Below, piece by piece: positions 1,979 through 38,074 of a stretch of DNA of 46,358 nucleotides. This DNA comes from Eubacterium sp. (lineage in GTDB: Bacteria > Bacillota > Clostridia > Oscillospirales > Ruminococcaceae). A model generated the notes under the pieces. That model had not been told where the DNA came from. It was given only the letters and a program-made list of their open reading frames with translations, and made no database searches. Made by a program: the position numbers and the translations under genes. The stretch lies in NCBI GenBank assembly GCA_022511265.1, contig JAFLRX010000006.1, positions 1-46,358 of the forward strand, written 5' to 3'. Position 1 is the first letter of the stretch. Each line of letters begins with the position of its first letter.

Positions 1979-2121
1979 GAGAAATTTGTGATTTTTTATG
2001 TGAAAAGCATAGGTGAAGGGCTATTGTAAAATATGTTCAGTGATGTGTCGTAAGCTTGAAAAAAACTTTTCATGAAATCACTTGACATTTTTAGTGTTCT
2101 AAGCTAACATAGCACTATCCT

Positions 2122-2156
2122 GTTGAAATAAAAATCCGTTGAAAAATCAACGGATT
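2122..2156 (-). terminator. Terminator facing the outward promoter
   Basis: Perfect 10-nt arms AATCCGTTGA (2133-2142) and TCAACGGATT (2147-2156) with a 4-nt loop, followed on the minus strand by TTTTATTTC. It lies about 100 nt downstream of the minus-strand promoter at 2266-2294 and would stop that transcript in the present orientation. Confidence 0.7.
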
Positions 2157-2215
2157 AGCTTTACTGTTTTTAAAGAGGGCAAAAAATTGTGATAATAAAA
2201 GTTTGTAATAAAATA

Positions 2216-2238
2216 CCACTTATCACACACATAAATGG
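2216..2238 (+). repeat. Left inverted core-type recombination site
   Basis: Arms CCACTTAT (2216-2223) and ATAAATGG (2231-2238) flank a 7-nt spacer CACACAC. Positions 2220-2237 are the exact reverse complement of 3567-3584. Short inverted arms around a 6-8 nt crossover region are the known architecture of tyrosine recombinase core sites. Confidence 0.8.
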
Positions 2239-2265
2239 ACATAAAAAAGCATTTTATTCTTAAAT

Positions 2266-2294
2266 ATTATATCGTATTTTAGTAAAATTGTCAA
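2266..2294 (-). promoter_or_regulatory. Consensus promoter inside the invertible segment, pointing left
   Basis: On the minus strand: TTGACA (2294-2289), a 17-nt spacer, then TATAAT (2271-2266). Both boxes match the sigma-A consensus perfectly. Expected transcription starts near 2259 and exits through the left core site. No minus-strand gene is served in this orientation before the terminator at 2122-2156. Confidence 0.85.
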
Positions 2295-2428
2295 TATAAA
2301 GTTCAAAAAATTTGATTATCCGGACGATTTTATCTTCGAAATGTTTAATTTTTAAATTTTTTCAAAAGTTTAAGCCGTCAAAATTTCCGTCATGTATAAT
2401 TATAATAAAAACTTGTGAGGTGACTATC

Positions 2429-3502
2429 ATGTCTAAGAAAGGTACAAATATTTACAAACGTAAAGACGGACGGTGGGAGGCAAGGTATATAAAATCCGTT
2501 GAATCTGACGGCAGCAAAAAATACGGCTCTGTTTATGGTCACAGTTACCGTGAAGCTCGTGACAAGCAGTTGTATTTTATGCATAATCTTCATTTATCCG
2601 TACAACAGACACATATCACATTAACGGAGTTGACGAGAGAGTGGCTGTCAAGTATTGTCTTTTCTGTAAAAAAATCAACATATCAAAAATACGAAAGTCT
2701 CATCCGCAACCACATTGAGCAGGTCCCTATAGGTCAAATGCAGGTAAGATTTATAACAAGTAAAACAATAAACGACTTTGCTGTAAAAAGATTGGATAAA
2801 TTGTCAGTAAAAACTGTAAATGATATCCTTGTAATCATGAGTTTAGCTTTATCATACGCTGAGGAAATATACAATATCATAAAGCCGAAAATACGTTATC
2901 TTAAAACCCCTACAAAAGAAACCCGAGTGCTGTCAATTAGCGAGCAGCAGCAACTTGAAACATATTTGCTGCAAGATATGGATATATGTAAGTTTGGAGT
3001 TTTGCTGGCTTTATATACCGGTATCCGTGTAGGCGAGCTTTGCGCTTTGCAGTGGAGTGATATGAAAGCAACCGAGATAGTTATCTCGAAAACACTGCAT
3101 AGAATAAAAGACCGTACAGGCACGATACTGGAAACAACAGAGCCAAAAACCAAAAGCTCAAACCGGATAATTCCGATACCAACTTTTTTCATTCCTATCG
3201 TTGAACAATTCAGAAGTTACGGAAGTGTACTGAAACTCAGTAACGGTAATATCGTAGAACCGCGTCTTATGCAGCATAAGTTTGAGAAATATATCAAGGA
3301 ATGCGGTTTGCCTAAAACAAACTTTCATGCTCTTCGGCATACTTTTGCTACGCGATGTGTGGAGTCTGGTTTTGATATAAAATCTTTATCTGAAATATTA
3401 GGGCATACGGACGTAAGAACTACGCTCAACAAATATGTCCACTCCTCATATGAGCAAAAGCAAAAAAATATGGAGCTTTTGCGACCGGCAAGTAATTTAT
3501 AA
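2429..3502 (+). CDS. Tyrosine recombinase, probable DNA invertase
   Basis: A 357-aa protein. The start is ATG 2429, behind GTGAGGTGACT; an upstream in-frame ATG at 2312 has no ribosome site. The N-terminal arm domain is KRKDGRWEARY, a SAM-like core-binding domain lies around residues 65-170, and the catalytic domain shows TGIRVGEL (Arg I), HALRHTFATR (His-x-x-Arg) and LGHTDVRTTLNKYVH (His and nucleophilic Tyr). All catalytic residues are present. It lies wholly between two inverted core-type sites, which suggests that it inverts its own locus and the outward promoter at 2266-2294. A TATAAT at 2395-2400 may serve as its -10. Integration or excision is an alternative function, but attachment sites would then be direct repeats, which I do not see. 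Confidence 0.9.
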   Translation: MSKKGTNIYKRKDGRWEARYIKSVESDGSKKYGSVYGHSYREARDKQLYFMHNLHLSVQQTHITLTELTREWLSSIVFSVKKSTYQKYESLIRNHIEQVPIGQMQVRFITSKTINDFAVKRLDKLSVKTVNDILVIMSLALSYAEEIYNIIKPKIRYLKTPTKETRVLSISEQQQLETYLLQDMDICKFGVLLALYTGIRVGELCALQWSDMKATEIVISKTLHRIKDRTGTILETTEPKTKSSNRIIPIPTFFIPIVEQFRSYGSVLKLSNGNIVEPRLMQHKFEKYIKECGLPKTNFHALRHTFATRCVESGFDIKSLSEILGHTDVRTTLNKYVHSSYEQKQKNMELLRPASNL

Positions 3503-3521
3503 GCCGTCATAAATATGGTCA

Positions 3522-3556
3522 AAGCAGTACTGTAAACGCAGTACTGCTTGTTTTTT
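3522..3556 (+). terminator. Terminator of the recombinase gene
   Basis: Perfect 11-nt arms AAGCAGTACTG (3522-3532) and CAGTACTGCTT (3539-3549), then a T run at 3551-3556. It sits just inside the right recombination site and isolates the downstream operon from recombinase transcription in this orientation. It would move away on inversion. Confidence 0.9.
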
Positions 3557-3563
3557 CGGATTA

Positions 3564-3590
3564 TTTCATTTATGTGTGTGATAAATGAAA
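3564..3590 (-). repeat. Right inverted core-type recombination site
   Basis: Perfect 10-nt arms TTTCATTTAT (3564-3573) and ATAAATGAAA (3581-3590) flank the 7-nt spacer GTGTGTG. The spacer is the reverse complement of that in the left site. It lies 92 nt before the start codon of the first operon gene. Confidence 0.8.
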
Positions 3591-3682
3591 TCTTATCTTC
3601 TCAATACTATTATTCCCGCAAGATCACGGCATAACCTAAAACCAAGGCGAAAGTCTGAAATAATTATAAAGGAGATGTTTCG

Positions 3683-6600
3683 ATGAAACTTAAAAGAATG
3701 TTAGCAGGGCTGTTGGCGGCATCAATAACATTGACTACGATCGCTACCTCGTTTGTTGCAGGAGCGGAGAATGCCGGGGTGTCCGGCATTGCCCAAACGG
3801 TTCAGAGCGGAATCGCGCAGGATGAGAATAAACCTATAAATAATAACAACTCTATTGAAACTGCGCCTGTTCCCAATACGGAGATAATGCGCCCTGCATC
3901 TTTAAGTACGCCTGTGATAAAGAACCCTGTATACATTTCAACAGCGTCCGGGGATTTAGTATACGGCGACGAAACCGTTACAAGGGCAGAATGGCTGCAC
4001 GATTTGGCAGTAGTATTTGATATGTCTGTCGACGAAATGCTTATGCCGGATAATTATTTCAATGATTTGGAGAATTCCCATAAATATTATAGTGATATTT
4101 TACTTACAGTGGAATTTGGCGTTGTTGATATTGAAGCAGGACAAAACCTTTATCCTGATGACCCTGCAACGCGTGAATTTGCAGCTACAACGTTGAATTT
4201 CTGCCTTGGTTATCAGCTTGATGAGGAAGAGTACATTTTTTCTGATATTAGTGAAGTAAGTTCTCCTGTTGACGCTCAAGTGGCGATAAACAACGGATGG
4301 CTTGCGCTTATCGATGGAAAATTCTTACCGGATAGAGCCATAACACCTGATGAAGTTCAGGGAATGATGGATTATGCGTCATTAGTCGTAGATTCGACTA
4401 TCGTTGATGATAATTATGACAGCGTATATGAATTTCAGAGTGATGTTATTATAGTTCCGGATGGCACAGAGGTGTCAGGCGAATTTGCCGTCGAAGAAGG
4501 CGACACCAACATAATTAATATAGTTGACTGTCCGGTTACCATACAAACAGGGGATAAGTTTGCTGTTTATTTTAATGAAATTCCGGTTGTGTATTCTGCC
4601 TTAAAAGTGACTAAGAGTGGAAATATAACTACAATATCCGCAGATAATGTTTCAACAGAAGATGCTTTTGTGTACATTTCAGCCCAGGGTTCTGTAGGTT
4701 CGGATAGTATGACTTTTACTCCTGTAGAGGATGCAGATGTAGAAGTTTATAATGATGATACAGGTGAACTGGTAAATTCATATAAGGCTTATGCAAATGT
4801 CAGCCAGTCTGTTATTCCGGCTTCAAATGCTAAAGCAAAGGCTTCTTTATTAGGCAGCAACTCTTCAATTTCTGTTACGCAAACTTTAAAGGTAGATTCT
4901 GCAAAGCTTACAGTAAAAGCAAAGATAAAAAATCCGGAAATAGAATACAGCGCAGGTTTAGATTGGATGGATGCGCATGCCTATGCGACTCTTATTGCCG
5001 ATGTTGAATATGAATTTAGCATAACCACTGATGCAGGCGCATTGACCGGAACAAAAACTTCTGTGGATTTTGGCACTTTCGGTGTACCTGGCGTCGGCGG
5101 TATTACGCTTTCACTGGAGGTTGATCTTTCAGGTAAGGCTTCCGGAACTGTTAAAGGAACATTATGTACAGGAATTCAATGGACCTTAAAAACAGGACTG
5201 CGAACAATAAGAAGCTTCTCTAAAACTGATTGCTATACCAGTATAGAAGCAAGCGCATCGGCATCTCTTGTCTTTAAATTCGGCATTACTCAGTTGCCTA
5301 TAATAAACGCTTATGCTTATGCTAAAATCGGTTTGAAAGCAGATTTTAAGGGCGTTACATATTCGGATAACGTTTCTCCTCATATGTGTTCGGATTTTTC
5401 GTTTTATATTACTGCAAGTATCGGATTTACCATTAAAATAGATATAAAAGTATGGAGTAATAAATGGGATTTTAATTATGACATAATTAATAAATCGAAT
5501 AGTCCTATTCGAGTTCAACATCATTATGAAGATGGACTGGAAGTAGCAAAATGTACAAGAGGTTCGACTTCGGGTTCAGATTCGTCCGGAGATACTTCAT
5601 CCGGTGGATCGTCATCGGGAGGCGCATCATCTTCACGTTCCGGATATGTAACCAAAGGAACCTCACGTTGGAGCGGCAGCGGATGGTCCGGCGCAAACCG
5701 CGCTTACAGCATCAATGATGACGGCACTCCGATGCAGCTTTATGATTATACAGTTGACGGCGAAAATGCCACTATTACAAAATATAAAGGATATTCTAAT
5801 TTTGTGAACATCCCCGACACTATAGACGGCTATACCGTTACCGCTATAGGAGAGAGTGCGTTTGAAGACAATACCCGTCTGGCAATGGTAGTTATACCGT
5901 CTACCGTTAAAGAGATAGGCAGTAGTGCATTTTATAACTGTACTTCATTAAGTTCTGTAAATATACCTGATGGTGTTAAAGAGATAAAGAGATCAACTTT
6001 TGAAAATTGCTACAATTTATCAAGTATTACTATACCGGACAGCGTAACTGAAATACAAAGCTTTGCTTTTGCAAATTGTACATCTGTCAGCAATTTGGTT
6101 CTGTCAAAAAATCTGACATATATTAATCACGGTGCTTTTATGAATTGTACAAAACTCTCTTCTGTTCTTATTCCCAAGTCTTTAGAGAGTGCAGATGTTT
6201 ATTCAGATTTATGGGGAACCTTGTATTATGGCGTTTTCGAGGGAACAAATTTAACTTCAGTAACTTTTGAAACTGGTATCAAAAAAATCCCTGATTGGCT
6301 GTTTTTTAATTGTGATAAACTCCCCCAAATAACTGTTCCGTCATCTGTTGTTTCAATTGGACGAGGCGCATTTTATGCTTGCGTAGGTTTAGAAGAGGTG
6401 TCATTAAGTGATAATTTAGTTACTATAGAGAGTTCGGCATTTGAAGATTGTGCATCTCTTACTAAAATTGTTATTCCTGATAGCGTGACTGAAATAGGAA
6501 GTGTTGCTTTTAGGAATTGTTCATCACTTGAAGATGTAAAACTCCCAAAAAATTTAACTTTTATCGATTATGGCGCATTTATGAATTGTGAAAAATTAAA

Positions 6601-7471
6601 GAAAATAATCATACCAAAAGCCTTAGAAAGGGCAAGCTATAACGATAATGTATGGGGGGACAGGTTCGACGGAGTATTCGAGAACTCTGGTTTAAAAAAT
6701 GTAGAGTTTGAAACAGGGATGACTAGAGTTCCAGCTTGGCTATTTTTTAATTGCAGCAGTTTGGAGAGCATCACTATCCCTGAAACTGTTGTGACGATAG
6801 ATACCGGAGCATTTTATAATTGCACAGGTCTTAAAAATGTATCAATTAGCGAGAATATATTAGAAATACACAATTTAGCATTTCTCGGATGCACTTCTCT
6901 GACCGAAATCGAAATACCCGATAGTGTTGTTTCAATCGATGGATATGCGTTTAGCGATTGCGTTTCTTTATCCAATGTAAAGCTGTCAAATCACCTCACA
7001 TATTTAGGATATGGAGTATTTGAAAATTGCGAAAACTTGACCAAAATCTTTATACCTAAATCTCTTGAAGAAACAGATGCGAACAGTAGCATTTTTGGTG
7101 GATATTATGGCGGTGTATTTAACGGCAGCGGATTAAAAGATGTTGAGTTTGAAAAAGGAGTAACTTCTATTCCTGAGTGGTTGTTCTTTGACTGTGACAG
7201 TCTTGAAACCATTATTATACCTGATACAGTGAGAAGTATCGGATATAGTGCTTTCCGTGGCGCTGATGGACTAAAAACTATAGTGTTACCGTCGGGGTTA
7301 GAGGATATTGATAGTTATGCGTTTTTTGAATGTACATCTCTTGAAGAAATAACTATTCCTGAAAAAATCCATATACTTAACCAATACGTATTCTATGGTT
7401 GTACATCTCTTGCTAAAATTGTTATTCCTGATAGCGTGACTAGAATTGGAAATTCTGTTTTTGAAAATTGA
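3683..7471 (+). CDS. Secreted SLH-like/LRR_5 (BspA-type) surface protein, N-terminal part; truncated by in-frame TGA
   Basis: ATG 3683 follows AAAGGAGATGTTTCG. Residues 1-27 form a signal peptide. Residues ~98-240 resemble S-layer homology repeats (TRAEW...FNDL...YYSDI...YPDDPATREFAA). A beta-rich middle region is followed by a Ser/Gly linker at ~630-660 and BspA-type LRR_5 repeats from about residue 690 (IPDSVTEIGSVAFRNCSSL pattern). A higher-order unit of ~147 aa (PKSLE...GVFE...IPxWLFFNC) occurs three times, near nt 6174, 6615 and 7054. TGA at 7469-7471 replaces a conserved Cys codon inside a repeat, and the same frame continues to 9742 with more repeats and a dockerin. Without readthrough the product loses the dockerin. 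First gene of the putative phase-variable operon. Confidence 0.85.
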   Translation: MKLKRMLAGLLAASITLTTIATSFVAGAENAGVSGIAQTVQSGIAQDENKPINNNNSIETAPVPNTEIMRPASLSTPVIKNPVYISTASGDLVYGDETVTRAEWLHDLAVVFDMSVDEMLMPDNYFNDLENSHKYYSDILLTVEFGVVDIEAGQNLYPDDPATREFAATTLNFCLGYQLDEEEYIFSDISEVSSPVDAQVAINNGWLALIDGKFLPDRAITPDEVQGMMDYASLVVDSTIVDDNYDSVYEFQSDVIIVPDGTEVSGEFAVEEGDTNIINIVDCPVTIQTGDKFAVYFNEIPVVYSALKVTKSGNITTISADNVSTEDAFVYISAQGSVGSDSMTFTPVEDADVEVYNDDTGELVNSYKAYANVSQSVIPASNAKAKASLLGSNSSISVTQTLKVDSAKLTVKAKIKNPEIEYSAGLDWMDAHAYATLIADVEYEFSITTDAGALTGTKTSVDFGTFGVPGVGGITLSLEVDLSGKASGTVKGTLCTGIQWTLKTGLRTIRSFSKTDCYTSIEASASASLVFKFGITQLPIINAYAYAKIGLKADFKGVTYSDNVSPHMCSDFSFYITASIGFTIKIDIKVWSNKWDFNYDIINKSNSPIRVQHHYEDGLEVAKCTRGSTSGSDSSGDTSSGGSSSGGASSSRSGYVTKGTSRWSGSGWSGANRAYSINDDGTPMQLYDYTVDGENATITKYKGYSNFVNIPDTIDGYTVTAIGESAFEDNTRLAMVVIPSTVKEIGSSAFYNCTSLSSVNIPDGVKEIKRSTFENCYNLSSITIPDSVTEIQSFAFANCTSVSNLVLSKNLTYINHGAFMNCTKLSSVLIPKSLESADVYSDLWGTLYYGVFEGTNLTSVTFETGIKKIPDWLFFNCDKLPQITVPSSVVSIGRGAFYACVGLEEVSLSDNLVTIESSAFEDCASLTKIVIPDSVTEIGSVAFRNCSSLEDVKLPKNLTFIDYGAFMNCEKLKKIIIPKALERASYNDNVWGDRFDGVFENSGLKNVEFETGMTRVPAWLFFNCSSLESITIPETVVTIDTGAFYNCTGLKNVSISENILEIHNLAFLGCTSLTEIEIPDSVVSIDGYAFSDCVSLSNVKLSNHLTYLGYGVFENCENLTKIFIPKSLEETDANSSIFGGYYGGVFNGSGLKDVEFEKGVTSIPEWLFFDCDSLETIIIPDTVRSIGYSAFRGADGLKTIVLPSGLEDIDSYAFFECTSLEEITIPEKIHILNQYVFYGCTSLAKIVIPDSVTRIGNSVFEN

Positions 7472-7486
7472 AAATCTTTAGAGAAT

Positions 7487-9742
7487 GTGGTTTTATCTAA
7501 GGCATTACAAACTATAGATAGTTATACTTTTTATGGCTGTGAAAAGCTTAAAACTATCACTATTCCGGAAGGTGTAACTGCAATTTATGAAAGAGCATTT
7601 GAAAACTGTACCTCACTGGTTGAAATTGATCTTCCTGATACTCTTACTCATATAAACAACAGGGTTTTTAGAAATTGCGATTCGCTTGAAAACATTGTTA
7701 TACCGGAAAAAACTGATACTATAGGATATGAGGCTTTCTATGACTGCGATTCTCTTAAAACAGTCGTCCTTCCTGATTCCCTTGGAAGCATTGAAAGTTC
7801 AACATTTTACAGCTGTGACTCTCTTGAAAGTGTAGATTTAGGCAACGGTATTAAGAATATAGCCTATGACGCATTCCGCCTTTGTCCGGCACTTACCGAA
7901 ATAGTTCTACCCAAGAGCCTTGAGAAAATAGGGACTAACGCCTTTGCTGAGTGCACAAAACTCACGAAAGTAACAATCTACCCCAACACCACGGAAATAC
8001 CAAACAACGCTTTCTCTTATCCTGCAAGGACTACCGTGTACGGTTACAAAGGCACCTATGCTGATGAATACGCAAATTCAAGAGGTATGACCTTTGTGCC
8101 GCTTGATAAAATCACTGCTGATAAGATAACATTTGATATCAGCGAACAGGAATACACCGGCAAGCAGATAAAACCTGATGTCATCCTGACCGATGACGGA
8201 TATAAACTGAAAAAAGGCGTTGATTACGCAATAATGTCCTATGGCAACAACACCGAGGTCGGCAAAGGAACTGTAAAGATAAATCTTATTGGTGCTATGT
8301 ACGAAGGTGCAATTGAAGCTGTCTTTGAAATCGTTCCTGCAAACATTGCTAATGCCAATTGCTATTCGGACGGAAGCGTTTACTATAACGGCTCATATCT
8401 CGAAGAGGGCAAGGATTATACTGTTTCGTACAGATATAACCTTGACTCGGAGGGTTATGATGTAGTATTTAACGGTATCGGCAACTTTACCGGAACGGCA
8501 ACGGTAACAGGGGAGGACGCAAAACCGCTTCTTTCATATCGTACAGGTTGGGAGGACGAAGACGCCCTCAACATGAATTGGGACCTTGACTTCTCACTAG
8601 CTGACGATGATGTATGGCATTCAGTTGACAGAGTAGAGGCTGTAGTGTACACAAACGGCAGTATATCAGCCGGACTGGGCGCACAGACTGTAAATTCTGA
8701 CTGGGTACAGGTGTACAATAAATCAGTTTACGGTTATCAGACTATTGTAATTGATGATATGGGTGGTCTGAAAACCGGCGTAGATGAAAACGGAGAAAAC
8801 CAAGCAGTTCTGAATTTCGGCTTATGGTGGATGGATTCCTATACATCTGCGTCGCTGATATCTGTTACGCTGTATGACAAAAACGGCAATGTAATAATGG
8901 AATTCCCGCAATCGGAGAATTTCCTCATATATGAGTTGAACGATGATGGTACGGCTAATATTATTGATGCGGATGTTATCGGATCGGAAATTGTTATACC
9001 CGATGAGATTAACGGACATGAAATCACATCTATAGCTGATAACGCATTCGCGGATAATGCAGGGCTTACTGATATTACTATCCCCGGCAGCGTTGATTCT
9101 ATAGGTGATAATGCGTTCGCCGGTTGCTCGGATGAACTTACTATCCATGGATATATCGGCTCTTACGTTGAAGAGTATGCGGCAGAAAATAATATCAATT
9201 TTGCTCCGATAGTGGACATCGTTGATAAAAATACCGGAATAGGTATAAGCGATCCCGATAATTCAGTTCCCGATGATGCTGTGCTTGTTGTTGAAGAAAC
9301 CGAAACCAATGATAAGCGTGCTGTTTACGAGATAACCCTTATAGATTCCTACGGTGATGCTGTACAGCCGGACGGCGAGGTCACCGTTCTTATCCTCATT
9401 CCCGAGGCTTGGAAAACTGCTGAAGAAATATATGTATATTACCGCGATGAAAGCGGTAATCTTACCGATATGAACGCTTACATTTACGGTGATTACATTG
9501 TGTTTAACACCACGCATTTCAGCGAATATGTAGTGTCTGTTGAGGAACAAACTGAGTTTGATGTTCTTATCGGTGACGTCAACGGAGACGGCGTGATCGA
9601 TCCTCTTGATAATATCGCGCTTGCTATGTGGCTTGCAGGTTGGGACGGCGAAATAAACGAAGCTGCTGCCGACATAAACGGCGACGGTACTATCGACCCG
9701 CTTGACAACATCGCGCTTGCCATGCAACTTGCCGGATGGTAA
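7487..9742 (+). CDS. C-terminal part of the same LRR protein, with dockerin (disconnected by TGA at 7469)
   Basis: In the same frame as the preceding gene; together they would encode 2019 aa. GTG 7487 is the first possible start but has no ribosome site, so this part is probably not made independently. It carries further LRR_5 repeats to about nt 8060, an Ig-like/beta module (~8100-8340), a second beta domain, one more LRR pair (~8990-9150), and a C-terminal type I dockerin from ~9568. The dockerin has two DVNGDG/DINGDG calcium loops, each followed by DPLDNIALAM and then xLAGW. Dockerins bind cohesins, and a cohesin protein ends this operon at 16702. Either this is a broken allele, or a sequencing error, or the stop is bypassed. 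Confidence 0.75.
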   Translation: MVLSKALQTIDSYTFYGCEKLKTITIPEGVTAIYERAFENCTSLVEIDLPDTLTHINNRVFRNCDSLENIVIPEKTDTIGYEAFYDCDSLKTVVLPDSLGSIESSTFYSCDSLESVDLGNGIKNIAYDAFRLCPALTEIVLPKSLEKIGTNAFAECTKLTKVTIYPNTTEIPNNAFSYPARTTVYGYKGTYADEYANSRGMTFVPLDKITADKITFDISEQEYTGKQIKPDVILTDDGYKLKKGVDYAIMSYGNNTEVGKGTVKINLIGAMYEGAIEAVFEIVPANIANANCYSDGSVYYNGSYLEEGKDYTVSYRYNLDSEGYDVVFNGIGNFTGTATVTGEDAKPLLSYRTGWEDEDALNMNWDLDFSLADDDVWHSVDRVEAVVYTNGSISAGLGAQTVNSDWVQVYNKSVYGYQTIVIDDMGGLKTGVDENGENQAVLNFGLWWMDSYTSASLISVTLYDKNGNVIMEFPQSENFLIYELNDDGTANIIDADVIGSEIVIPDEINGHEITSIADNAFADNAGLTDITIPGSVDSIGDNAFAGCSDELTIHGYIGSYVEEYAAENNINFAPIVDIVDKNTGIGISDPDNSVPDDAVLVVEETETNDKRAVYEITLIDSYGDAVQPDGEVTVLILIPEAWKTAEEIYVYYRDESGNLTDMNAYIYGDYIVFNTTHFSEYVVSVEEQTEFDVLIGDVNGDGVIDPLDNIALAMWLAGWDGEINEAAADINGDGTIDPLDNIALAMQLAGW

Positions 9743-9780
9743 GAATAATAAATTATATAACATACTGAAAGGATATTATT

Positions 9781-10176
9781 ATGAAAATCAAGAAAATATC
9801 GGCAGATGTACTTGCCGGAATAATTACTGTTTCTTTACTGGCTGCCGGAGCAGCACTTAACGTGTCAGCAATCTTAAGCAGCGATGCTACAGTTGGTGCG
9901 TCAACCGACCCTGTGCCCGGAGATTCGACCGAACCCGCACCGGGAGATTCGAGCAGCCATGTGCCGGGCGAAACCGAACTTCCGCCTGAGATAATTATAG
10001 GCGACGTAAATGGTGACGGTAATGTTGACCCTCTCGACAATATCGCATTGTCTATGTGGCTTGCGGGTTGGGATGAGAATATAATCGAGGAAGCCGCCGA
10101 CATAAACGGTGACGGATCGGTTGATCCGCTTGATAACATCGCTCTTGCTAGGAAGCTGGCCGGATGGGAAGATTAA
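9781..10176 (+). CDS. Dockerin-only secreted miniprotein
   Basis: A 131-aa protein, 38 nt after the LRR gene, with ribosome site GAAAGGA. It consists of a signal peptide (residues 1-29), a Pro/Ser/Thr/Glu linker with repeated PGDS units (~38-62), and one complete type I dockerin with two calcium loops (DVNGDGNVDPLDNIAL and DINGDGSVDPLDNIAL). No catalytic or binding module is present. The dockerin is almost identical to those at the ends of the neighbouring large proteins. It may cap or compete for cohesin sites, or it may be a remnant of a larger protein that lost its cargo. The intact signal peptide, linker and frame suggest that it is expressed. The role is inference. Confidence 0.8.
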   Translation: MKIKKISADVLAGIITVSLLAAGAALNVSAILSSDATVGASTDPVPGDSTEPAPGDSSSHVPGETELPPEIIIGDVNGDGNVDPLDNIALSMWLAGWDENIIEEAADINGDGSVDPLDNIALARKLAGWED

Positions 10177-10208
10177 GTTTTTAACGATTGTATTGAAAGG
10201 GAAAAACT

Positions 10209-12671
10209 ATGAAATTAAAGAGAACAACATCTGGACTGCTTGCCGGTGTAATGACGCTGACAACGATATTCTCATCGTTTGCCGCCGAGGCTAAAAGCAT
10301 TAATTCTATTCCGACCGCCTTAGAAACTGGAATCGTTGAAGAATCTGTTGCAACCGGCGTATCAGGAGACTATGAATATGATTTTCTTAATGATGGGACT
10401 ATTGAGATAACATGGTATAGTGGTGACGAAACCGAACTAGTCATTCCGTCGGAGATAGATGGGTATAAGGTGACAAGCATAGGGGACTTCGCTTTTGAGT
10501 ATTGTGCAGGTTTTACTTTAATATCAATACCGGACAGTATAACGAGTATAGGAAATTATGCTTTTGCTGGTTGTTACAACCTTGCATCAATAATAATGCC
10601 TAACAGTGTGATTAGTATAGGCGATTTTGCTTTTGTTGGTTGTTCTAATCTTACATCAATTATAATACCCAACAGTGTGACGAGTATTGGTGAGTTTGCT
10701 TTTTGCAATTGCTCCAGCCTTACCTCAATAATAATACCCGGCAGTGTAACAAGTATAAGCGAGTCAATCTTTGCTGGTTGTTTCGGCCTTACCTATATAA
10801 CAATAAATGACAGTGTTACCAGTATAGGATATGATGCGTTTTATCAATGTTTTGATCTTACTGATGTTTACTACACCGGAACACAAGAACAATGGAATGA
10901 AATTGATATAAATATAGATGACTATGGGAATGATGCTTTATTAAACGCCACCATCCACTACCACGGAGAATATACAATCAAAAACGAGATAGAGCCCACA
11001 TGTACAGAAGAAGGCTCTTGTGAAAAAGTATACTACTGTGAAATATGTGATGAAGAGCTCGGACGAGAGACCGTTACGATTGATGCTCTCGGTCACGACT
11101 GGGGCGAATGGGGTATAATCAGCGAGGCGACCGAGACTGAGCCAGGAGAAAGACAGCATACCTGCAAACGCTGCGGTGAAATAGAGAAAAAAATTACACG
11201 ACTGCGCGAAATTCCTGTTGATCAGAGTAAAGTGCTTTACGGCGAACTCGAAGGAGACGGAAATCTACGTATTGAAATATATAATTATTACGGAGATACG
11301 GGCAATCCTGAAGTATCCCCTATTGTTCCCGCTAATATCATAGACGCATATTCTGTTTCGGTTACTTTTACTATCACAGGTCTTAATGATTTGCTGGATA
11401 CTGTTGATTATTCCGCTGCTATGATTTTCGCTGACAAGAGCTGGTACGCGATGGATATGAGAAACACCATCATTCCTATAATCATCAGCGATGGTACATA
11501 TACAATTACCAGCAACTTTGAGCCTTGGGTAGATGAAGATACCGGCGATCCCTTTCTGCCTATTGCTAACGGAGTGACTTGTCTGGTGGTAGAAATTATC
11601 GGACTAGCTGACGATTTAAGCAACAGCGATTTTAGTAAGTTTATCATTTCTGATGTTAAAGTAGTGATAGAGACTTCGTATGATGGGGAATTTGTTGGCA
11701 ATGACCATGAGTCGGAATATATTTCGCACGCTCATATCGCATCAGAAACAGTTCGTGAGAATGGATATGATGCAACATGCACTGGATACGGTTCATATTA
11801 CTTAATAACACGTTGCGAATTGTGTGATAAAATAATTCGTAGAAAGACAGTAACTAAACCCGCCCTCGGTCACGACTGGGGCGAATGGAATATAATCAGC
11901 GAGGCGACCGAGACTGAGTCAGGAGAACGACAGCATATCTGCAAGCGCTGTGACAAGATAGAGAAAATTATTACTCCCCCTACCTCACTGGAGACGACAG
12001 AAGTACCGCTCGATAATGCCGGAATGACTGTTGACGATGGCGGACTTCGTGTTAATATTGTTCATCCTTGGGCAAGTTCGGATGATTGGGATACTTTCAA
12101 TATTATTGATTCTGTCAAGTTTGAAGGTACTCAGACAATATCCTTTAAATTTACCGTAGAGGGTTACGAAGAATACGGAAAGCCATTTAACGCTTGGCTT
12201 ATATTTGCTACTAACACTTGGGATGATGAAAGCAATCTTTACTATTGGGGCGCAGGCGATTCCTTCGGTGTTCATCAGACGCCTGTTGCTATCCGCGGAA
12301 ATGGTGAATATGTGATTACTCTTACTACCGATCGTCCGATAGTAGTTGAGGATAACTTTTTCATTGCTTTGCAAACGGACATCATACCGGATTACGATGA
12401 AAAATATGAGTTAATTAATATTCCGCAGCTTTCTCTTGCGCAGGCTGCCAGAGACGGAGCGCTTATCGCCGACAGCCAAAGCAATATCCTCATCGGCGAT
12501 GTAAACAACGACGGGGCTGTTGACCCGCTCGACAATATTGCCCTTGCTATGTGGCTTGCAGGTTGGGAAGGCGATATAAACGAGGCTGCTGCTGACATAA
12601 ACGGCGATGGTACCATCGACCCGCTTGACAATGTCGAGCTTGCAATGAAACTGGCAGGTTGGGACGGCTGA
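10209..12671 (+). CDS. Secreted LRR_5/CxxC-repeat protein with C-terminal dockerin
   Basis: An 820-aa protein with ribosome site GAAAGGGAAAAACT. It has a signal peptide (1-27), then about six BspA-type LRR_5 repeats (~residues 75-240; IPNSVTSIGEFAFCNCSSL type). Two copies of a cysteine unit follow (CTEEGSCEKVYYCEICDEEL then LGHDWGEW...CKRCGEIEKK, ~260-335 and ~515-590), each before a beta-sandwich-like domain of unknown type. The C-terminus is a dockerin (DVNNDGAVDPLDNIAL and DINGDGTIDPLDN). The LGHDWGEW/CxxC unit is the same module that is repeated seven times in the cohesin protein at 16702. It is probably displayed on the cell by dockerin-cohesin binding. The ligand is unknown. Confidence 0.85.
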   Translation: MKLKRTTSGLLAGVMTLTTIFSSFAAEAKSINSIPTALETGIVEESVATGVSGDYEYDFLNDGTIEITWYSGDETELVIPSEIDGYKVTSIGDFAFEYCAGFTLISIPDSITSIGNYAFAGCYNLASIIMPNSVISIGDFAFVGCSNLTSIIIPNSVTSIGEFAFCNCSSLTSIIIPGSVTSISESIFAGCFGLTYITINDSVTSIGYDAFYQCFDLTDVYYTGTQEQWNEIDINIDDYGNDALLNATIHYHGEYTIKNEIEPTCTEEGSCEKVYYCEICDEELGRETVTIDALGHDWGEWGIISEATETEPGERQHTCKRCGEIEKKITRLREIPVDQSKVLYGELEGDGNLRIEIYNYYGDTGNPEVSPIVPANIIDAYSVSVTFTITGLNDLLDTVDYSAAMIFADKSWYAMDMRNTIIPIIISDGTYTITSNFEPWVDEDTGDPFLPIANGVTCLVVEIIGLADDLSNSDFSKFIISDVKVVIETSYDGEFVGNDHESEYISHAHIASETVRENGYDATCTGYGSYYLITRCELCDKIIRRKTVTKPALGHDWGEWNIISEATETESGERQHICKRCDKIEKIITPPTSLETTEVPLDNAGMTVDDGGLRVNIVHPWASSDDWDTFNIIDSVKFEGTQTISFKFTVEGYEEYGKPFNAWLIFATNTWDDESNLYYWGAGDSFGVHQTPVAIRGNGEYVITLTTDRPIVVEDNFFIALQTDIIPDYDEKYELINIPQLSLAQAARDGALIADSQSNILIGDVNNDGAVDPLDNIALAMWLAGWEGDINEAAADINGDGTIDPLDNVELAMKLAGWDG

Positions 12672-12702
12672 TATTTAACTGCTTACACCGAAAGGAAAAA
12701 CT

Positions 12703-15700
12703 ATGAAAATAAAGGAAACAGCAAAAAGGCTTCTTGCCGGGGTAATGGCATTGACGATGATGCTGACGACATCGGTGTCGTTTACTACCTATGGCGAAAG
12801 TGCGTATGATGATTATTCAGGCGGTAACGCTGCTGTAAGCAGCGACTTGGATGTGTCAGGCAACGGCTCTCTCGGTAACATGATCGCCGATGAGTTGCTT
12901 GAGAAGAACGACGAACAGCAGGAAAACAACGGCTGTAATGTGTTTTCCGTTGAGGTGGAAGGCACTACCGCTTACGTTTCCTACGAGACAACTCAAGATT
13001 GCACGCTGACGGTAGGTATATATGACAATGAGGGTGAAGAGTTGCTTGCGGTCGGCACGGCTCAGGTTTCCGCAGAGGAGACCGACGCGGAGGTAGAAAT
13101 CGTCACCGACAACATGCCGGAATATTTCTACATAAGAGCATATCTTGTGAAAAGCGACACACTGCGCCCGCTCTGTACCGAGTATGATTCACCTATGTAT
13201 ACTAAGGATATGCAGGAATTCCTTGGAAAAACTACCGAAGATTTTGACGAGGAAAGAGTCCTGAACTTTGACGAGGACGAGGATACAAACTTTGCGGTAT
13301 TCAGCGAGGAAACCGTGCTTATCCATGACGGTGCGACAAACGTTGTTATCTCAGCAGATGAGGAAAAGCAGGAATATGTTTTCGGTAATGTGGATGAAAA
13401 GATAACCTCGCTACGCAAGGGTGATATTTTTGCGCACGAAAACAACGGCGAGCTGCTGATAGTAAAGGTTGGCAGTATCACCGTCAACGGCACGCAAGCC
13501 ACCGTCAACGGCGATGATGTTGAGCTGGAAGAGGTCTTTGAGCATTTAAGGATAGACGGCGAAGCACCCACCGAGAGTGCTGTTGTCGATACCTCCGACC
13601 TTGAGGACGGGGTTACATATTTGGGATGTGTTGAGGACGGAAACGACAGCGAGATTGCGACTTATGCGGTTGACGAGGAGGGGAAATCCGGTTTTTCTTT
13701 AAAATTTGAAATTAAAGACGACGAAAAAAACGAGAACGACCCAAGTAATACAAGCTTTAGTTTTTCAGCCTCGTTAACTATAAAAATAGAGGCTTCAGCA
13801 AAACTTTATATATCTTTATTTGAAACAAATATTCAAGTAAAATTGGATTATTCTAATAAAGTAGAAGTGAAATTTGAAGGAAATTCAAAAGATACATATC
13901 CTCTTGCATCTTTAAGGATAGACGTTGTTCCCGGAATAGTTGCTATAGAACTTACACCGTCCTTTGTATTTGAATTTAGCGGCACCGCTAGCCTTAATGG
14001 TACGCTTAAAGGATCAGTAGGGTTTAAAGCTTCAACACAAACCGGTGCGCAAAGCCTCACAACCACTCCATCGTTTACAGTTAGCGGTGAACTGCAAGTG
14101 ACCTTATTTGTTGGGCTTTCTCTTGAACCTAAATTAATAGTAGTTCACGAAAAAGTTGCTAATGCATCATTAACTGCAAAGGTTGGAGCTGAGGTAAAAG
14201 CAGTTTTTTCAAGTGTGACCACAGCAGTACAAAATGATACCATCCACGACTGTGTAAAATGTATTGACGGAAAAGTAAACGCAAAATTCCAAGTAAAAGC
14301 AAAAGTGAAATTGCTTGATGCGGATTGGTTGAGTTTTGATATTAATATTCTGGAAACAACTGTCAAGCTTTTCAACTTTTATTATTCTCTTACATTTAAC
14401 GAGCGAGGATTTACAGAATGTCCTCATATACGTTATTTGCACGAAATAAAGATACACAATTTGAATTCAGAACCTATAAGCGGTGCGAAAATAATCATAA
14501 ATGATAATGAAGAAGTTTTAACCACCAATGAAGATGGCGTTGCTAAAGTATATCTGCCTCTGGGTTTCTATGATATAGAGGTTTCTGCAAATGGATATGT
14601 CACCAAAAAAACAAGCATAGGTATAGTAAAAAATATAAGCTTTATGCGCTCGTCTATTGTGAAACTGCTTACACCTGAGCAGGATAACGAAGCTCAAAAA
14701 CTGGTAGATCAAATGCTTGATTCTTTTGGTTTTGCCCGTGATGGCTCGTCTAATCCTGAGGATGTGGATTATGAGAAATGGGATAGTGAGAATAACCCTG
14801 GGGAAGATATTCCAGAGGAAATTGAAGGTGTAAAGGTCAAGCAGGTTAGTCTTGGAGAGACCCACAGCGCTGCAATAACAACAGACGGCAGTCTTTATAT
14901 GTGGGGAGATAATTATCACGGTCAGCTTGGAAATGGAACTAATGAAGACAGTTCTGTTCCTATAAAAATTATGGATAATGTTGCATTTGTAAGTCTGGGG
15001 TATTATCACAGTGCTGCAATAACAACAGACGGCAGTCTTTATATGTGGGGTTATAATTATTCAGGTCAGTTAGGAAATGGCACAACAGAAGACTGTTATA
15101 CCCCTATAAAAATTATGGATAATGTCGCATCTGTCAGTCTTGGAGACGAACATAGTGCAGTAATAACAATAGATGGAAGTCTTTATACATGTGGACAGAA
15201 TCTAGGAGGTGCTCTTGGAAACGGAACAATAGAAGGCAGTTATATTCCCATAAAAATCATGGATGATGTTACAACTGTCAGCCTTGGTGAAAATTATAGC
15301 TCAGCAATAACAACAGACGGAAGCCTTTATATGTGGGGAGTTAATTGGTACGGTCAGCTTGGAAACGGCACAACAGAAGACGGTTATATTCCTGCAAAAA
15401 TAATGGACAATGTTACAGCAGTAAGTCTTAAATACGAAAGCGGTGCAGCGATAACAACAGACGGAAGTCTTTATATGTGGGGACAAAATGATTATGGTCA
15501 GCTTGGAAACGGTAAAAGCGGAGGAAACTATTTTGAATATGACGAAAGCATTGACAGTTATACTCCTATTAAAATCATGGACAATGTTGTGTCTGTAAGT
15601 CTTGGGAATGCACATAGTGCAGCAATAACAACAGACGGCGATCTTTATATGTGGGGATGGAATGAAAGCGGTATGATTGGAAACGGCACAACCGAAGATA

Positions 15701-16617
15701 GTTCTACCCCTATCAAAATAATAAATAATGTTGCATCTGTCAGTCTTGGATATGTACATAGTGCGGCAATAACAACAGATGGTAGCCTTTATACTTGGGG
15801 CGATAATTATTATGGTCAGCTCGGCAATGGCAAATGTGGAGGCAATTCTTGGTACGGCGGGTTTGACGACGGCATTGACAGCTCCACTCCTATAAAAATT
15901 ACCATTCCGCCTGTGGCATCTGCTGCCAACGCAACATCTACATATTCGATGATGAAAGCTTCTCCATCCAACATCACCCAAACCTTTACCGACCTTATAC
16001 CTAACGAGATATACAACTACTATTCCGTAAAATCCCGCACGGTAAAAGACGTTCTGTCGGCGTACAACCTGCTGTACATTGGGCAGGCGGTGTCGGACGA
16101 AAAAGGCACCCTTACCGTAAGCGTCCCCGATGGGGTGGTCTTTGTAAAGGCAATGACGGAATTTACCGTACGCAATGCGGATATAACCGAGGCTACGGCG
16201 TGCGAAGAATCGGTATCCCTGACATGGAATCCTGTGGACAATGCCGATGAATATGAGGTGATTGGCATCACGAAAGACGGCATCAGCGTTCAGGTAAAGA
16301 CCTCCGATACGTCTATCGAGATAGACGGACTTACGCCTGATGAGGATTATGCTTTCGTTGTGACCTCAATCATTTACGGTGAACAATCTGTACCATATGT
16401 TAATGATTTTGTGTTAGTTCATACCGACAGTACAGAAGTGCTTATAGGCGATGTAAACAACGACGGAGTTGTCGACCCGCTCGACAATATCGCCCTTGCT
16501 ATGTGGCTTGCAGGGTGGGAAGGCGATATAAACGAGGCTGCTGCCGACATAAACGGCGACGGTGCTATCGATCCGCTTGATAATGTTGCTCTTGCTATGT
16601 GGCTTGCCGGATGGTAA
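12703..16617 (+). CDS. Secreted RCC1-repeat protein with fibronectin-like domain and dockerin
   Basis: A 1304-aa protein. It has a signal peptide (1-28), an acidic N-terminal beta region, a middle beta region (~340-590) and a carboxypeptidase-regulatory-like fold (~590-650; HNLNSEPISGAKIIINDNEE). Seven RCC1-type blades follow at nt ~14840-15900, each with SLGxxHSAAITTDGSLYMWG then GQLGNGT; seven blades would close one beta-propeller. A fibronectin type III-like domain (~1165-1245) and a dockerin (two DPLDN loops, then AMWLAGW) end the protein. RCC1 propellers usually bind proteins or ligands. No protease or glycosidase motif is seen. It lies 31 nt behind the previous gene with the same ribosome site, so the genes are probably co-transcribed. 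Confidence 0.85.
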   Translation: MKIKETAKRLLAGVMALTMMLTTSVSFTTYGESAYDDYSGGNAAVSSDLDVSGNGSLGNMIADELLEKNDEQQENNGCNVFSVEVEGTTAYVSYETTQDCTLTVGIYDNEGEELLAVGTAQVSAEETDAEVEIVTDNMPEYFYIRAYLVKSDTLRPLCTEYDSPMYTKDMQEFLGKTTEDFDEERVLNFDEDEDTNFAVFSEETVLIHDGATNVVISADEEKQEYVFGNVDEKITSLRKGDIFAHENNGELLIVKVGSITVNGTQATVNGDDVELEEVFEHLRIDGEAPTESAVVDTSDLEDGVTYLGCVEDGNDSEIATYAVDEEGKSGFSLKFEIKDDEKNENDPSNTSFSFSASLTIKIEASAKLYISLFETNIQVKLDYSNKVEVKFEGNSKDTYPLASLRIDVVPGIVAIELTPSFVFEFSGTASLNGTLKGSVGFKASTQTGAQSLTTTPSFTVSGELQVTLFVGLSLEPKLIVVHEKVANASLTAKVGAEVKAVFSSVTTAVQNDTIHDCVKCIDGKVNAKFQVKAKVKLLDADWLSFDINILETTVKLFNFYYSLTFNERGFTECPHIRYLHEIKIHNLNSEPISGAKIIINDNEEVLTTNEDGVAKVYLPLGFYDIEVSANGYVTKKTSIGIVKNISFMRSSIVKLLTPEQDNEAQKLVDQMLDSFGFARDGSSNPEDVDYEKWDSENNPGEDIPEEIEGVKVKQVSLGETHSAAITTDGSLYMWGDNYHGQLGNGTNEDSSVPIKIMDNVAFVSLGYYHSAAITTDGSLYMWGYNYSGQLGNGTTEDCYTPIKIMDNVASVSLGDEHSAVITIDGSLYTCGQNLGGALGNGTIEGSYIPIKIMDDVTTVSLGENYSSAITTDGSLYMWGVNWYGQLGNGTTEDGYIPAKIMDNVTAVSLKYESGAAITTDGSLYMWGQNDYGQLGNGKSGGNYFEYDESIDSYTPIKIMDNVVSVSLGNAHSAAITTDGDLYMWGWNESGMIGNGTTEDSSTPIKIINNVASVSLGYVHSAAITTDGSLYTWGDNYYGQLGNGKCGGNSWYGGFDDGIDSSTPIKITIPPVASAANATSTYSMMKASPSNITQTFTDLIPNEIYNYYSVKSRTVKDVLSAYNLLYIGQAVSDEKGTLTVSVPDGVVFVKAMTEFTVRNADITEATACEESVSLTWNPVDNADEYEVIGITKDGISVQVKTSDTSIEIDGLTPDEDYAFVVTSIIYGEQSVPYVNDFVLVHTDSTEVLIGDVNNDGVVDPLDNIALAMWLAGWEGDINEAAADINGDGAIDPLDNVALAMWLAGW

Positions 16618-16701
16618 GTCTAATTATCCGTCAAGGAAGTTTTAATCAGATTATTAATCCCAAAAGGGTTTAATAAAATATAAAAAAGGAGATATAAAAC
16701 C

Positions 16702-18276
16702 ATGAAGAAATTAATTTCTTCCATTTTGACAGCAGCTGTCGCACTGACTGCAGCTTGTTGCACAGCAGCTGTCGCAAGTGCTGCGGACGCAAATGATGCG
16801 AAAGTAACACTCAGTGTATCCTTGGATAAGGATACTGTCTCAAGAGGCGATACCGTAACGGCAGTCATCTCTTTGGATGACAATCCCGGAATCATAGGCG
16901 CAAGACTTAATGTAGCGTATGATGAAAGTGTTTTGTCTATCGCTGATGCAAGCAGCGTTGTAGACAAACAACTGCTTGGTGGGCTTATCCCCGTAACTGT
17001 AGCTAATAACCCGTTTATAATTTATTGGTTAGAGGGCATGGGAATGGCAACCGCAAACAACACTTCTGAAGGTGTTTTGGCAGAGATCACTTTTAACGTA
17101 AAAGAGGATGCTGAATTCGGGGCACTTACAGATGCAGTTACGGTAGAAGTACTTCAGATCCCGTATATTTCGGAATCCGGTGCGCGTTTACAGTATACTG
17201 CTGATACTTATGTAGATAATTCTACCGAACTTCGTGTTCCCTGTACGACCCACTCATGGGGTGCATGGAATGAAACCAAAGCTGCAACATGTACTGCAAC
17301 AGGCTCTCAAACAAGAAAATGCACTGTTTGCGGCGAGACGGAAAATGGAACAATCAAGGCCCTCGGTCACGATTACGGCAATTGGGCGTTGTCTACTAAT
17401 CCTACTTGCACCGAAGCAGGTGAAGAAACCAGAACATGCTCTCGTTGCGATGCAAAAGAGACTCGCCCTGTTGATAAGCTTGGTCATGACTTTGGCAACT
17501 GGGAGCAGACCACTGATCCTACCTGTACTGAGAAAGGCGAAGAAACCAAGACATGCTCACGCTGTGATGCTAAGGAAACACGCACTGTTGATGCCCTCGG
17601 ACATGACTGGAGCGAGTGGGAAGTAGCTGTTGAACCTACTTGCATCGAAAATGGCAAGGAAATCAGAACCTGCTCACGCTGTGATGCGGAAGAAACATTT
17701 ATCAACGATGCTCTCGGACACAAGTGGGGCAGTTGGGAAATAACCGATGAGCCTACATGTACCGAAGAAGGTAAGCAGGTCAGAAATTGCGAACGTTGCG
17801 ATGCAAGCGAAGAAGATGTTGTTACCGCACTTGGTCATGATGTATCGGAAGAGAATGCCGAAGTAGTTAAGGAAGCTACTTGTACCGAGGACGGAGAACT
17901 TAAGGGTATATGCGATCGCTGCGGAGAGGAAGTAGTTGAGACAATTCCTGCTCTTGGTCACGATTGGGGTGAATGGGAAGTAACCAAGGAAGCCACCGAG
18001 ACTGAAGAAGGCGAGCAGACCAGAACCTGCGCACGCTGCGGTGAAACAGAGACTGAGGTTATCCCTGTTATTGAGCCTGAAGAACCCGACAATACTGAGG
18101 AACCCGGAAACACCGAGGAGCCCGGTAACACTGAAAATCCCGGTAATACCGAAGCACCCGACAATTCCAACAATGATAATCCTCCGACCGGGGTTGTTCC
18201 CGCTGTAAGTATTTTCGTGCTTATATCTGCCGCAGGCGCTGCAATGGCAGTATCCGGCATAAGAAAGCGCAAGTAA
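16702..18276 (+). CDS. Cell-wall-anchored cohesin protein (mini-scaffoldin) with seven CxxC repeats
   Basis: A 524-aa protein with ribosome site AAAAGGAGAT. Signal peptide 1-28. Residues ~33-175 fit a cohesin: VTLSVSLDKDTVSRGDTVTA, then NPGIIGARLNVAYDESVLSI, and a late GVLAEITFNVKEDAEFG strand. Seven ~40-aa repeats follow (~178-455), most with an LGHDxGxW start and TCTExGxxxRxCxRC pairs of cysteines that could bind zinc. Then come a Pro/Glu/Asn-rich wall-spanning linker, NPPTG, a hydrophobic segment and an RKRK tail, which is a sortase sorting signal of variant type. It is the only cohesin in the window, so it is the natural partner of the dockerins encoded upstream. The cohesin call is by pattern; a structure comparison would settle it. 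Confidence 0.8.
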   Translation: MKKLISSILTAAVALTAACCTAAVASAADANDAKVTLSVSLDKDTVSRGDTVTAVISLDDNPGIIGARLNVAYDESVLSIADASSVVDKQLLGGLIPVTVANNPFIIYWLEGMGMATANNTSEGVLAEITFNVKEDAEFGALTDAVTVEVLQIPYISESGARLQYTADTYVDNSTELRVPCTTHSWGAWNETKAATCTATGSQTRKCTVCGETENGTIKALGHDYGNWALSTNPTCTEAGEETRTCSRCDAKETRPVDKLGHDFGNWEQTTDPTCTEKGEETKTCSRCDAKETRTVDALGHDWSEWEVAVEPTCIENGKEIRTCSRCDAEETFINDALGHKWGSWEITDEPTCTEEGKQVRNCERCDASEEDVVTALGHDVSEENAEVVKEATCTEDGELKGICDRCGEEVVETIPALGHDWGEWEVTKEATETEEGEQTRTCARCGETETEVIPVIEPEEPDNTEEPGNTEEPGNTENPGNTEAPDNSNNDNPPTGVVPAVSIFVLISAAGAAMAVSGIRKRK

Positions 18277-38049: not shown

Positions 38050-38074
38050 ATCAAAACAGAAAGGAAGGTATCAA

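Follow-up and report, generated by a model that had tools for sequence, protein, structure and literature searches.

A probable self-encoded promoter inversion switch in front of a cohesin–dockerin operon in a Eubacterium species

In the Salmonella H segment an outward promoter switches the adjacent operon, and in the Cdi/RecV and fimS/FimB systems the recombinase gene lies outside the segment that inverts. Common inverton finders cap the distance between repeats at less than 1 kb. The available text of PMC5903667 places the recombinase gene of the H segment (Hin/hix) inside the inverted DNA, describes an 844-bp invertible segment of Providencia stuartii that encloses a recombinase open reading frame (ORF) near a fimbrial locus, and gives sizes of 154–230 bp for the C. 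difficile Cdi switches and 314 bp for E. coli fimS. Here we analyse a window of 46,358 nt, the first 46,358 bases of contig JAFLRX010000006.1 (C54) in the Eubacterium sp. assembly GCA_022511265.1 (2.26 Mb in 57 contigs, 99.87% complete), in which two inverted sites enclose a tyrosine recombinase gene and an outward promoter ahead of an operon of cohesin and dockerin genes. The segment at 2220–3584 is very probably a self-contained ON/OFF promoter switch for the operon at 3683–18276. On the sequence comparisons below, it is well supported as a variant of the invertible-promoter kind, one that would combine a Hin-like layout with an integrase-type tyrosine recombinase and an unexpected target.

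As far as the sources on these systems go, the locus shares with the H segment a recombinase gene inside the inverted DNA; Hin, however, belongs to the serine recombinases and works with an enhancer bound by Fis, whereas the window has a tyrosine recombinase, sites with a 7-nt spacer and putative arm repeats. The P. stuartii segment, as excerpted, likewise has inverted repeats around a recombinase gene, but it is a single proteobacterial example, likened here by layout and not by recombinase family. Cdi/RecV and fimS/FimB, in the same partial account, invert a promoter or switch with surface functions by tyrosine-type recombination, as we propose for the window, on short segments. Inverton group 139 of hCom2, with invertase group 35, is reported in the accessible parts of PMC11892184 as coming in 32 of 33 cases from Clostridia and as linked to a tyrosine-type recombinase. 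Read-based orientation shifts are given there for two named examples, in which about 205 and 227 nt separate the repeats, too short for an invertase gene; the likeness of group 139 to the family described below is one of description rather than of compared sequence identity.

The putative invertible segment and its recombinase

Two sites in inverted orientation bound the segment. Their arms (left, 2208–2237, plus strand; right, 3567–3596, minus strand) extend over 30 nt with 87% complementarity and contain an exact portion of 18 nt (2220–2237 and 3567–3584). The right site reads TTTCATTTAT-GTGTGTG-ATAAATGAAA, and the left site repeats this 7-nt spacer, CACACAC on the plus strand, beside a diverged outer arm, CCACTTAT. 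The original prediction, made from the sequence of the window before this analysis, had claimed two inverted sites with 18 identical nt and a common spacer, and this is borne out; the extent of 2216–3682 that it gave to the invertible unit is corrected to 2220–3584, with sites reaching to about 2208 and 3596 and with 3585–3682 as fixed DNA. Among 1000 dinucleotide shuffles of window 2000–3800, none produced an exact pair of at least 18 nt at a spacing of 700–2500 nt; the longest was 17 nt, and two shuffles reached at least 16. With short inverted repeats flanking a promoter-bearing segment, the arrangement has the layout expected of an inverton. Allowing up to two mismatches, the whole assembly holds no copy of the 18-mer beyond the two sites and no direct-repeat partner for them. 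An exact 26-mer scan of viral contigs found no second copy, and plasmid and phage records gave relatives exclusively below 60% identity; the contig scan for copies is one that may omit near copies, and the comparison genomes are one per species. Because the sites are inverted and share an asymmetric spacer, inversion and not excision is the expected product.

The tyrosine recombinase gene between the sites is complete, as originally claimed (2429–3502, plus strand, from the ATG at 2429 to the stop at 3502; 357 aa; Pfam Phage_integrase, 1.1e-23). Its frame is intact, and the protein can be aligned to the Int of 6en0 and shows the R, H/R/H and Y of tyrosine recombinases: R200, H300, R303, H326 and Y336, the residues with catalytic roles, are invariant in recombinase alignments of 16 and 33 rows. 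Pfam assigns it to the Phage_integrase family and not to the serine recombinases of the Hin/DNA-invertase kind. The closest solved structure is the 'Int protein' of 6en0 (E 4.7e-30), the Tn1549 integrase. The N-terminal 46 residues (GENIYKRKDGRWEARY) are strongly conserved; Pfam gives a weak AP2 match to them in three of 16 sequences (best E 0.096), and a search by sequence of this domain against solved structures returned no credible match. The conserved N-terminal domain and the arm-like repeats of the window family may have counterparts in the Tn916/Tn1549 integrases (IntTn916 subgroup), to the extent that PMC8138268 describes them. Those integrases move elements, whereas the window's sites, inverted and lacking a direct-repeat partner, do not have the layout for excision and integration of an element, and inversion would be their product. 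A TATAAT at 2395 may be the −10 element of the recombinase gene.

Just inside the left end lies an outward promoter, TTGACA-17-TATAAT (2266–2294, minus strand), which matches the consensus at 12 of 12 positions and is the sole 12/12 sigma-70-type match in the window. As assembled, it points left out of the segment and into an intrinsic terminator that lies beyond the left site and should stop leftward transcripts (2156–2133, minus strand; 10-bp stem, TTTTTATTT tail, −13.3 kcal/mol, RNA fold z −6.1). A second intrinsic terminator stands behind the recombinase gene, inside the segment (3522–3549, plus strand; 12-bp stem, GTTTTTT tail, z −5.2). ORFs, ON/OFF states, promoters and terminators are mechanical calls throughout. 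The perfect outward promoter, the hairpin it runs into and the terminator at the right end had all been predicted, as had the presence and correct arrangement of every part of an ON/OFF switch, and each stated part was found; the OFF state in which the switch had been drawn follows from the orientation of promoter and terminator.

Inverting the segment in silico moves the promoter to 3510–3538, with the end of its −10 element 144 nt from the ATG at 3683. The distance had been put at about 135 nt with nothing in between: no terminator-like hairpin does lie between the inverted promoter and this ATG, but the fixed stretch 3585–3682 holds one weak 9/12 promoter-like match (3585–3613). Matches of at least 9/12 are common, with 18 in a 2-kb scan against 7.6 expected from shuffles. 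Rfam at gathering thresholds matched no RNA family anywhere in the window, the 5′ leader included.

We propose that the enclosed recombinase acts on two inverted 27-bp sites, each with 10-bp arms around the 7-nt spacer, and that it would invert the segment holding its own gene and the outward promoter. In the assembled OFF state the promoter would fire left into the terminator; after inversion it would fire right and transcribe 3683–18276, and the ON product would be a set of dockerin-bearing LRR and RCC1 proteins, together with a single cohesin protein that ends in a sortase-type tail. We infer that inversion takes place in this strain and that the promoter is the operon's main one.

Related recombinases and their flanking sites

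We searched with the recombinase through the genomes of 60 relatives and through 71 from the genus, and with an alignment through the GTDB contig set and IMG/VR, from which the best 80 and best 79 loci were kept; the output of these similarity searches was capped, and the loci do not form a random sample. Deduplication gave 242 distinct recombinase loci, 24 of which were set aside as truncated. The site score was that of the best ungapped inverted pair between at most 600 nt upstream and at most 450 nt downstream of the gene. Inverted sites flank 105 of the 128 untruncated loci that score at least 200 bits to the window recombinase and only five of the 90 below 200 bits (2/19, 1/47 and 2/24; Fisher p 3e-32 for the contrast); as a null, one of 485 cross-locus pairs reached the site threshold. 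The 107 passing loci of at least 150 bits are referred to here as cassettes (median length 1417 nt), three passing loci below 150 bits being excluded both from this set and from the tree. Comparison with the 242 loci favours, for the segment, a promoter inversion switch that encodes its own recombinase rather than a passive or mobile element.

A tree of 185 proteins has a branch, with support of 93 (below the 95 mark), that places every one of the 105 site-flanked rows on the same side, which counts 138 rows; the other 33 rows on that side have no pair, and nine of these are partner recombinases. The site-flanked label changes 24 times on this tree, against a shuffled mean of 60. The tree takes 105 of the 107 cassettes, L096 (whose sequence, as read, is interrupted in frame at codon 68) and L122 (which did not qualify) being out. 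Organisms with cassettes include Blautia parvula, Butyricicoccus pullicaecorum and Dorea sp. 5-2. The window's own clade comprises five rows (support 99), namely its own locus, L036 in genome G005, L037 in G029, and L254 and L255, both in G094, and the layout is the same at all five loci of these four genomes. The ORF of L037 actually starts at 8808; the site and promoter counts take its start too far downstream and overstate its 5′ gap.

When 95 cassettes are aligned on the palindrome centre, 10-bp arms with the consensus TTTCGCAGAG surround a 7-nt spacer, and the two ends differ in about 1% or less of cassettes at each of the seven spacer positions and in up to 28% at arm positions within 11 nt. 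Both ends have the same spacer in 94 of 97 cassettes, with 88 distinct spacers, as counted with a site finder that may overlook cassettes with several bases of difference between their spacers. Among 26 cassette pairs with an identity of at least 72% across more than 700 nt, five share their spacer and 21 differ, both ends always being alike; these pairs overlap in membership and so are not independent, and one of them, L043/L044, differs through an artefact of centring, leaving 20 differing pairs. Of these, L254 and L255, within one genome, are 96% identical and have the spacers TGTATCC and TGTATTC, each at both ends. Such apparently concerted change is the pattern that strand exchange across an overlap region requires or leaves behind.

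Of the 107 cassettes, 61 have an outward promoter of at least 11/12 inside their 5′ site, at a median of 30 nt from the site, compared with two of 107 on the opposite strand and 0.7 per 107 in shuffles. Judged by the first ORF outside, 58 cassettes are OFF and 15 ON, while 20 have ORFs pointing away on both sides and 14 have neither arrangement. Terminators in OFF cassettes stand on the non-gene side in 20 of 55 cases and on the gene side in three of 55 (shuffled, 1.8 and 0.8), and in ON cassettes in six of 15 and three of 15, respectively; these counts cover the 103 of 107 cassettes with flanks of at least 120 nt, and the promoter and terminator shuffles moved non-overlapping dinucleotides only. 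Both orientations occur at homologous targets in relatives, the window's five-locus clade being OFF throughout. The cassettes of L121 and L130 are 93% identical on the same strand, with a 741-nt target flank (72%) at opposite ends and first genes 75% identical; in L043 and L044, from one genome, the same 310-aa gene (97% identical; target DNA 93%) lies at opposite ends. Elsewhere the commonest Pfam matches among first target genes (n = 66) are HTH_3 (seven), response regulator (six) and LytTR (five), followed by HTH_31 (five), TadZ-like (four) and TetR (three).

Around the recombinase gene we found putative arm-type direct repeats with a 12-nt period: CCGTCA-CCGTCA at 2375–2392 (plus strand; [CG]GTCA starting at 2376 and 2388), which ends two bases before the TATAAT at 2395, and CCGTCA-GGTCA at 3504–3521 (plus strand; the motif begins at 3505 and at 3517), immediately past the stop codon of the recombinase gene. 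Across the family, CCGTCA occurs 62 times on the plus and five times on the minus strand in the 21.1 kb between 5′ site and recombinase gene (shuffled plus, 2.6), and 62 and two times in the 8.6 kb from recombinase stop to 3′ site (shuffled, 1.6). Outside the sites the figures are six plus and 13 minus on the 5′ side (20.7 kb) and six and eight on the 3′ side (21.4 kb). Since the motif also exceeds its shuffled level of 9.9 in the recombinase coding region (40 plus and 42 minus in 73.3 kb), the case for arm repeats rests on density together with strand bias. The relaxed motif [CG]GTCA flanks the gene on both sides in 57 of 107 cassettes, most commonly at a spacing of 12 nt (33 and 20 cases); in the window's clade, the parts of the L037 stretches that were inspected contain no such repeats. 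The repeats could be arm sites for the conserved N-terminal domain, as in Tn916-type integrases, and by binding it they may influence the rate of inversion. The family has the appearance of integrase-type recombinases kept as invertases, with putative arm repeats on both sides and one pair upstream of the start. In the passages available, PMC8138268 ties arm-binding domains to recombinases of mobile elements and PMC6109161 describes the Rin invertase as lacking an arm domain, and as far as these two papers go an invertase with arm sites would be unusual.

Several cassettes depart from the common plan. At L041–L044, L047, L050, L051 and L053 a second recombinase gene (ORF of 304–345 aa) lies directly beyond one site, and several sites of this sub-family pair one canonical half (TTTCGCAAAA) with one unlike half, as if each recombinase bound one half in the manner of XerC/XerD. 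At L106 and L145 the inverted arm contains two tandem copies of the core site (pair scores 73 and 54). L176, L181–L184 and L188 are cassettes in contigs of the IMG/VR viral collection, and at L176, L181 and L182 the cassette precedes ORFs of more than 1000 aa.

The cohesin–dockerin operon

The operon at 3683–18276 comprises six plus-strand ORFs separated by gaps of 15–84 nt. The first (3683–7471) encodes a BspA-type LRR protein with a start that by eye resembles a signal peptide, and ends in TGA at 7469–7471; the second (7487–9742), an LRR protein with a dockerin, follows in the same frame after 15 nt, and 3683–9742 looks like one LRR-dockerin gene split by that in-frame stop. Next come a small dockerin protein of 131 aa (9781–10176; PF00404, 6e-11), an LRR-dockerin protein of 820 aa (10209–12671), an RCC1-repeat dockerin protein of 1304 aa (12703–16617), the last two by Pfam, and a single-cohesin protein of 524 aa (16702–18276) with an NPPTG-hydrophobic-KRK tail. 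Judged by eye, this tail would be a sortase-type signal, and we infer that the complex sits on the cell wall. Pfam detects LRR, RCC1, fn3 and CarboxypepD_reg-type domains in the six proteins and no glycoside hydrolase. By gene content the set has the cohesin scaffold and dockerin partners expected of a cohesin–dockerin complex, without, on these Pfam results, the dockerin-borne plant-polysaccharide enzymes of a cellulosome. An IS200-type transposase gene (Y1_Tnp) lies just behind the operon, at 18479–18949.

All four dockerins and the single cohesin detected in the genome (whole-genome Pfam, E ≤ 0.001) sit in this operon, and since it holds the entire detected cohesin–dockerin complement, the whole surface complex would be phase-variable. 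In the relatives of the clade, the genes behind cassettes comprise three of three dockerins and the one cohesin in G029, six of seven dockerins and both cohesins, behind two separate cassettes, in G094, and one of two dockerins and the one cohesin in G005, which brings the four genomes to 14 of 16 dockerins and five of five cohesins. G001, outside the clade with a recombinase 49% identical, has neither dockerins nor cohesins by Pfam. The five cohesin proteins of the clade are homologous, each placed after the dockerin genes of its set. Across the genus, in which many assemblies are fragmented, 48 recombinase hits and 72 cohesin hits were compared by contig, and a recombinase lies on the same contig as a cohesin at exactly the five clade loci. 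The homologous cohesins of G035, G015 and G092 lie on short contigs that start inside or just before the preceding operon gene.

Cohesin–dockerin systems are best known as fibre-degrading machines. In the available text of PMC4081043, ScaE of R. flavefaciens is a sortase-attached cohesin scaffoldin, and LRR-dockerins are known in that species from PMC2930009. The R. flavefaciens system, as excerpted in these two papers, is a large enzymatic cellulosome with 180–223 dockerin proteins per strain, whereas the set in the window is minimal and stands behind a probable switch, and no glycoside hydrolase domain was detected among its operon proteins. The open-access literature searched yielded no phase-variable cohesin–dockerin set.

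Alternative readings and implications

A number of observations weigh against the switch that we favour. Sites and promoters are not universal in the family: 23 of the 128 loci of at least 200 bits have no flanking pair at threshold, several of them showing weaker pairs in place and others none, while L045 is a technical miss whose frame ends inside the right site and shortens the tested stretch, a 16-nt exact pair being present. No outward match of at least 11/12 was found in 46 of 107 cassettes, nor one of at least 8 in four, and three of 97 cassettes have unequal spacers. OFF assemblies outnumber ON by 58 to 15, with 34 of 107 undecided. At the locus itself, 2331–2429 has no full sigma-70-type match that would serve the recombinase gene, and the reads in PMC11892184, as excerpted, demonstrate inversion of short Clostridia invertons near a recombinase gene and not of the 1.4-kb type. 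A short inverton of the group 139 type beside the gene was considered as the true unit and rejected on the 23 close recombinases without an enclosing pair, for which a scan of ±2.5 kb gave one pair of at least 15, crossing a gene end, and none on one side.

Three further adverse points would fit a locked relic, once a switch but no longer able to invert, whose promoter is fixed OFF or whose operon uses another promoter: each of the five clade loci is OFF as assembled, the outer arm of the left site departs from the consensus through drift, on account of which switching could also simply be slow, and the TGA at 7469–7471 interrupts an operon gene, by mutation or assembly error. We regard this as unlikely. 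The recombinase frame is intact with the expected conserved residues, the spacer is the same at both ends and changes in concert in the nearby paralogues L254 and L255, the 12/12 promoter and both terminators are kept, and the one promoter match in the fixed stretch 3585–3682 is a weak 9/12.

That the sites are instead the ends of a small integrase-driven transposon, with the promoter incidental, is less probable still. The best solved-structure match, the Int of 6en0, would suit such an element, and related recombinases do occur in several copies per genome at different places. Yet no direct-repeat partner turns up in the assembly at up to two mismatches, and it is with respect to the neighbouring gene that the promoter direction, the side of the terminator and the orientation of the target are ordered; a promoter switch, too, is compatible with spread in the course of evolution. 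Least credible is a two-way switch whose promoter alternates between the right operon and leftward genes (a short ORF at 1924 and a DUF6809 gene at 1802), for although in 20 of 107 relatives the ORFs on either side face away from the cassette and the leftward short ORF has a good ribosome site and starts 296 nt from the site, the terminator at 2156–2133 stands between the promoter and those genes.

With the promoter inversion switch retained, we lean, by a little over even, towards a broader account in which a widespread Clostridia family of integrase-type recombinases became self-inverting promoter cassettes of about 1.4 kb, with direct-repeat arm sites on a single strand, one pair of them next to the start of the recombinase gene, tuning or biasing the flip, and in which the cohesin–dockerin adhesion complex of this clade, the sole one detected in the genome, became phase-variable. 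If the switch operates as proposed, a complete, apparently non-enzymatic cohesin–dockerin set would be made by part of a clone, and the surface system would serve for bet-hedging. Switches of this family seem portable, as recombinase, sites, promoter and often a terminator lie side by side, mostly with a spacer of their own (88 distinct among 97), and for this reason one genome could hold several independent switches; one relative has seven recombinase hits at E ≤ 1e-40 and another eight, not all of them confirmed cassettes. Such cassettes could provide natural, possibly orthogonal toggles and a test of how an integrase with arm sites becomes an invertase.

Elsewhere in the window, a minus-strand group at 21282–27014 encodes three products: one of 870 aa that has two HATPase domains, one of 667 aa that Pfam does not match, and one of 378 aa that seems to begin like a DNA methyltransferase; the group is possibly a defence or restriction island. 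Type I-C-like CRISPR-Cas genes occupy 35674–43665, with the Cas3-like gene (35674) and Csd1 (38791) called by Pfam and the rest by position, and are followed by a repeat array at 44557–46339 with the unit GTCGGGACCCGTGGGGGTCCCGTGGATTGAAAT.

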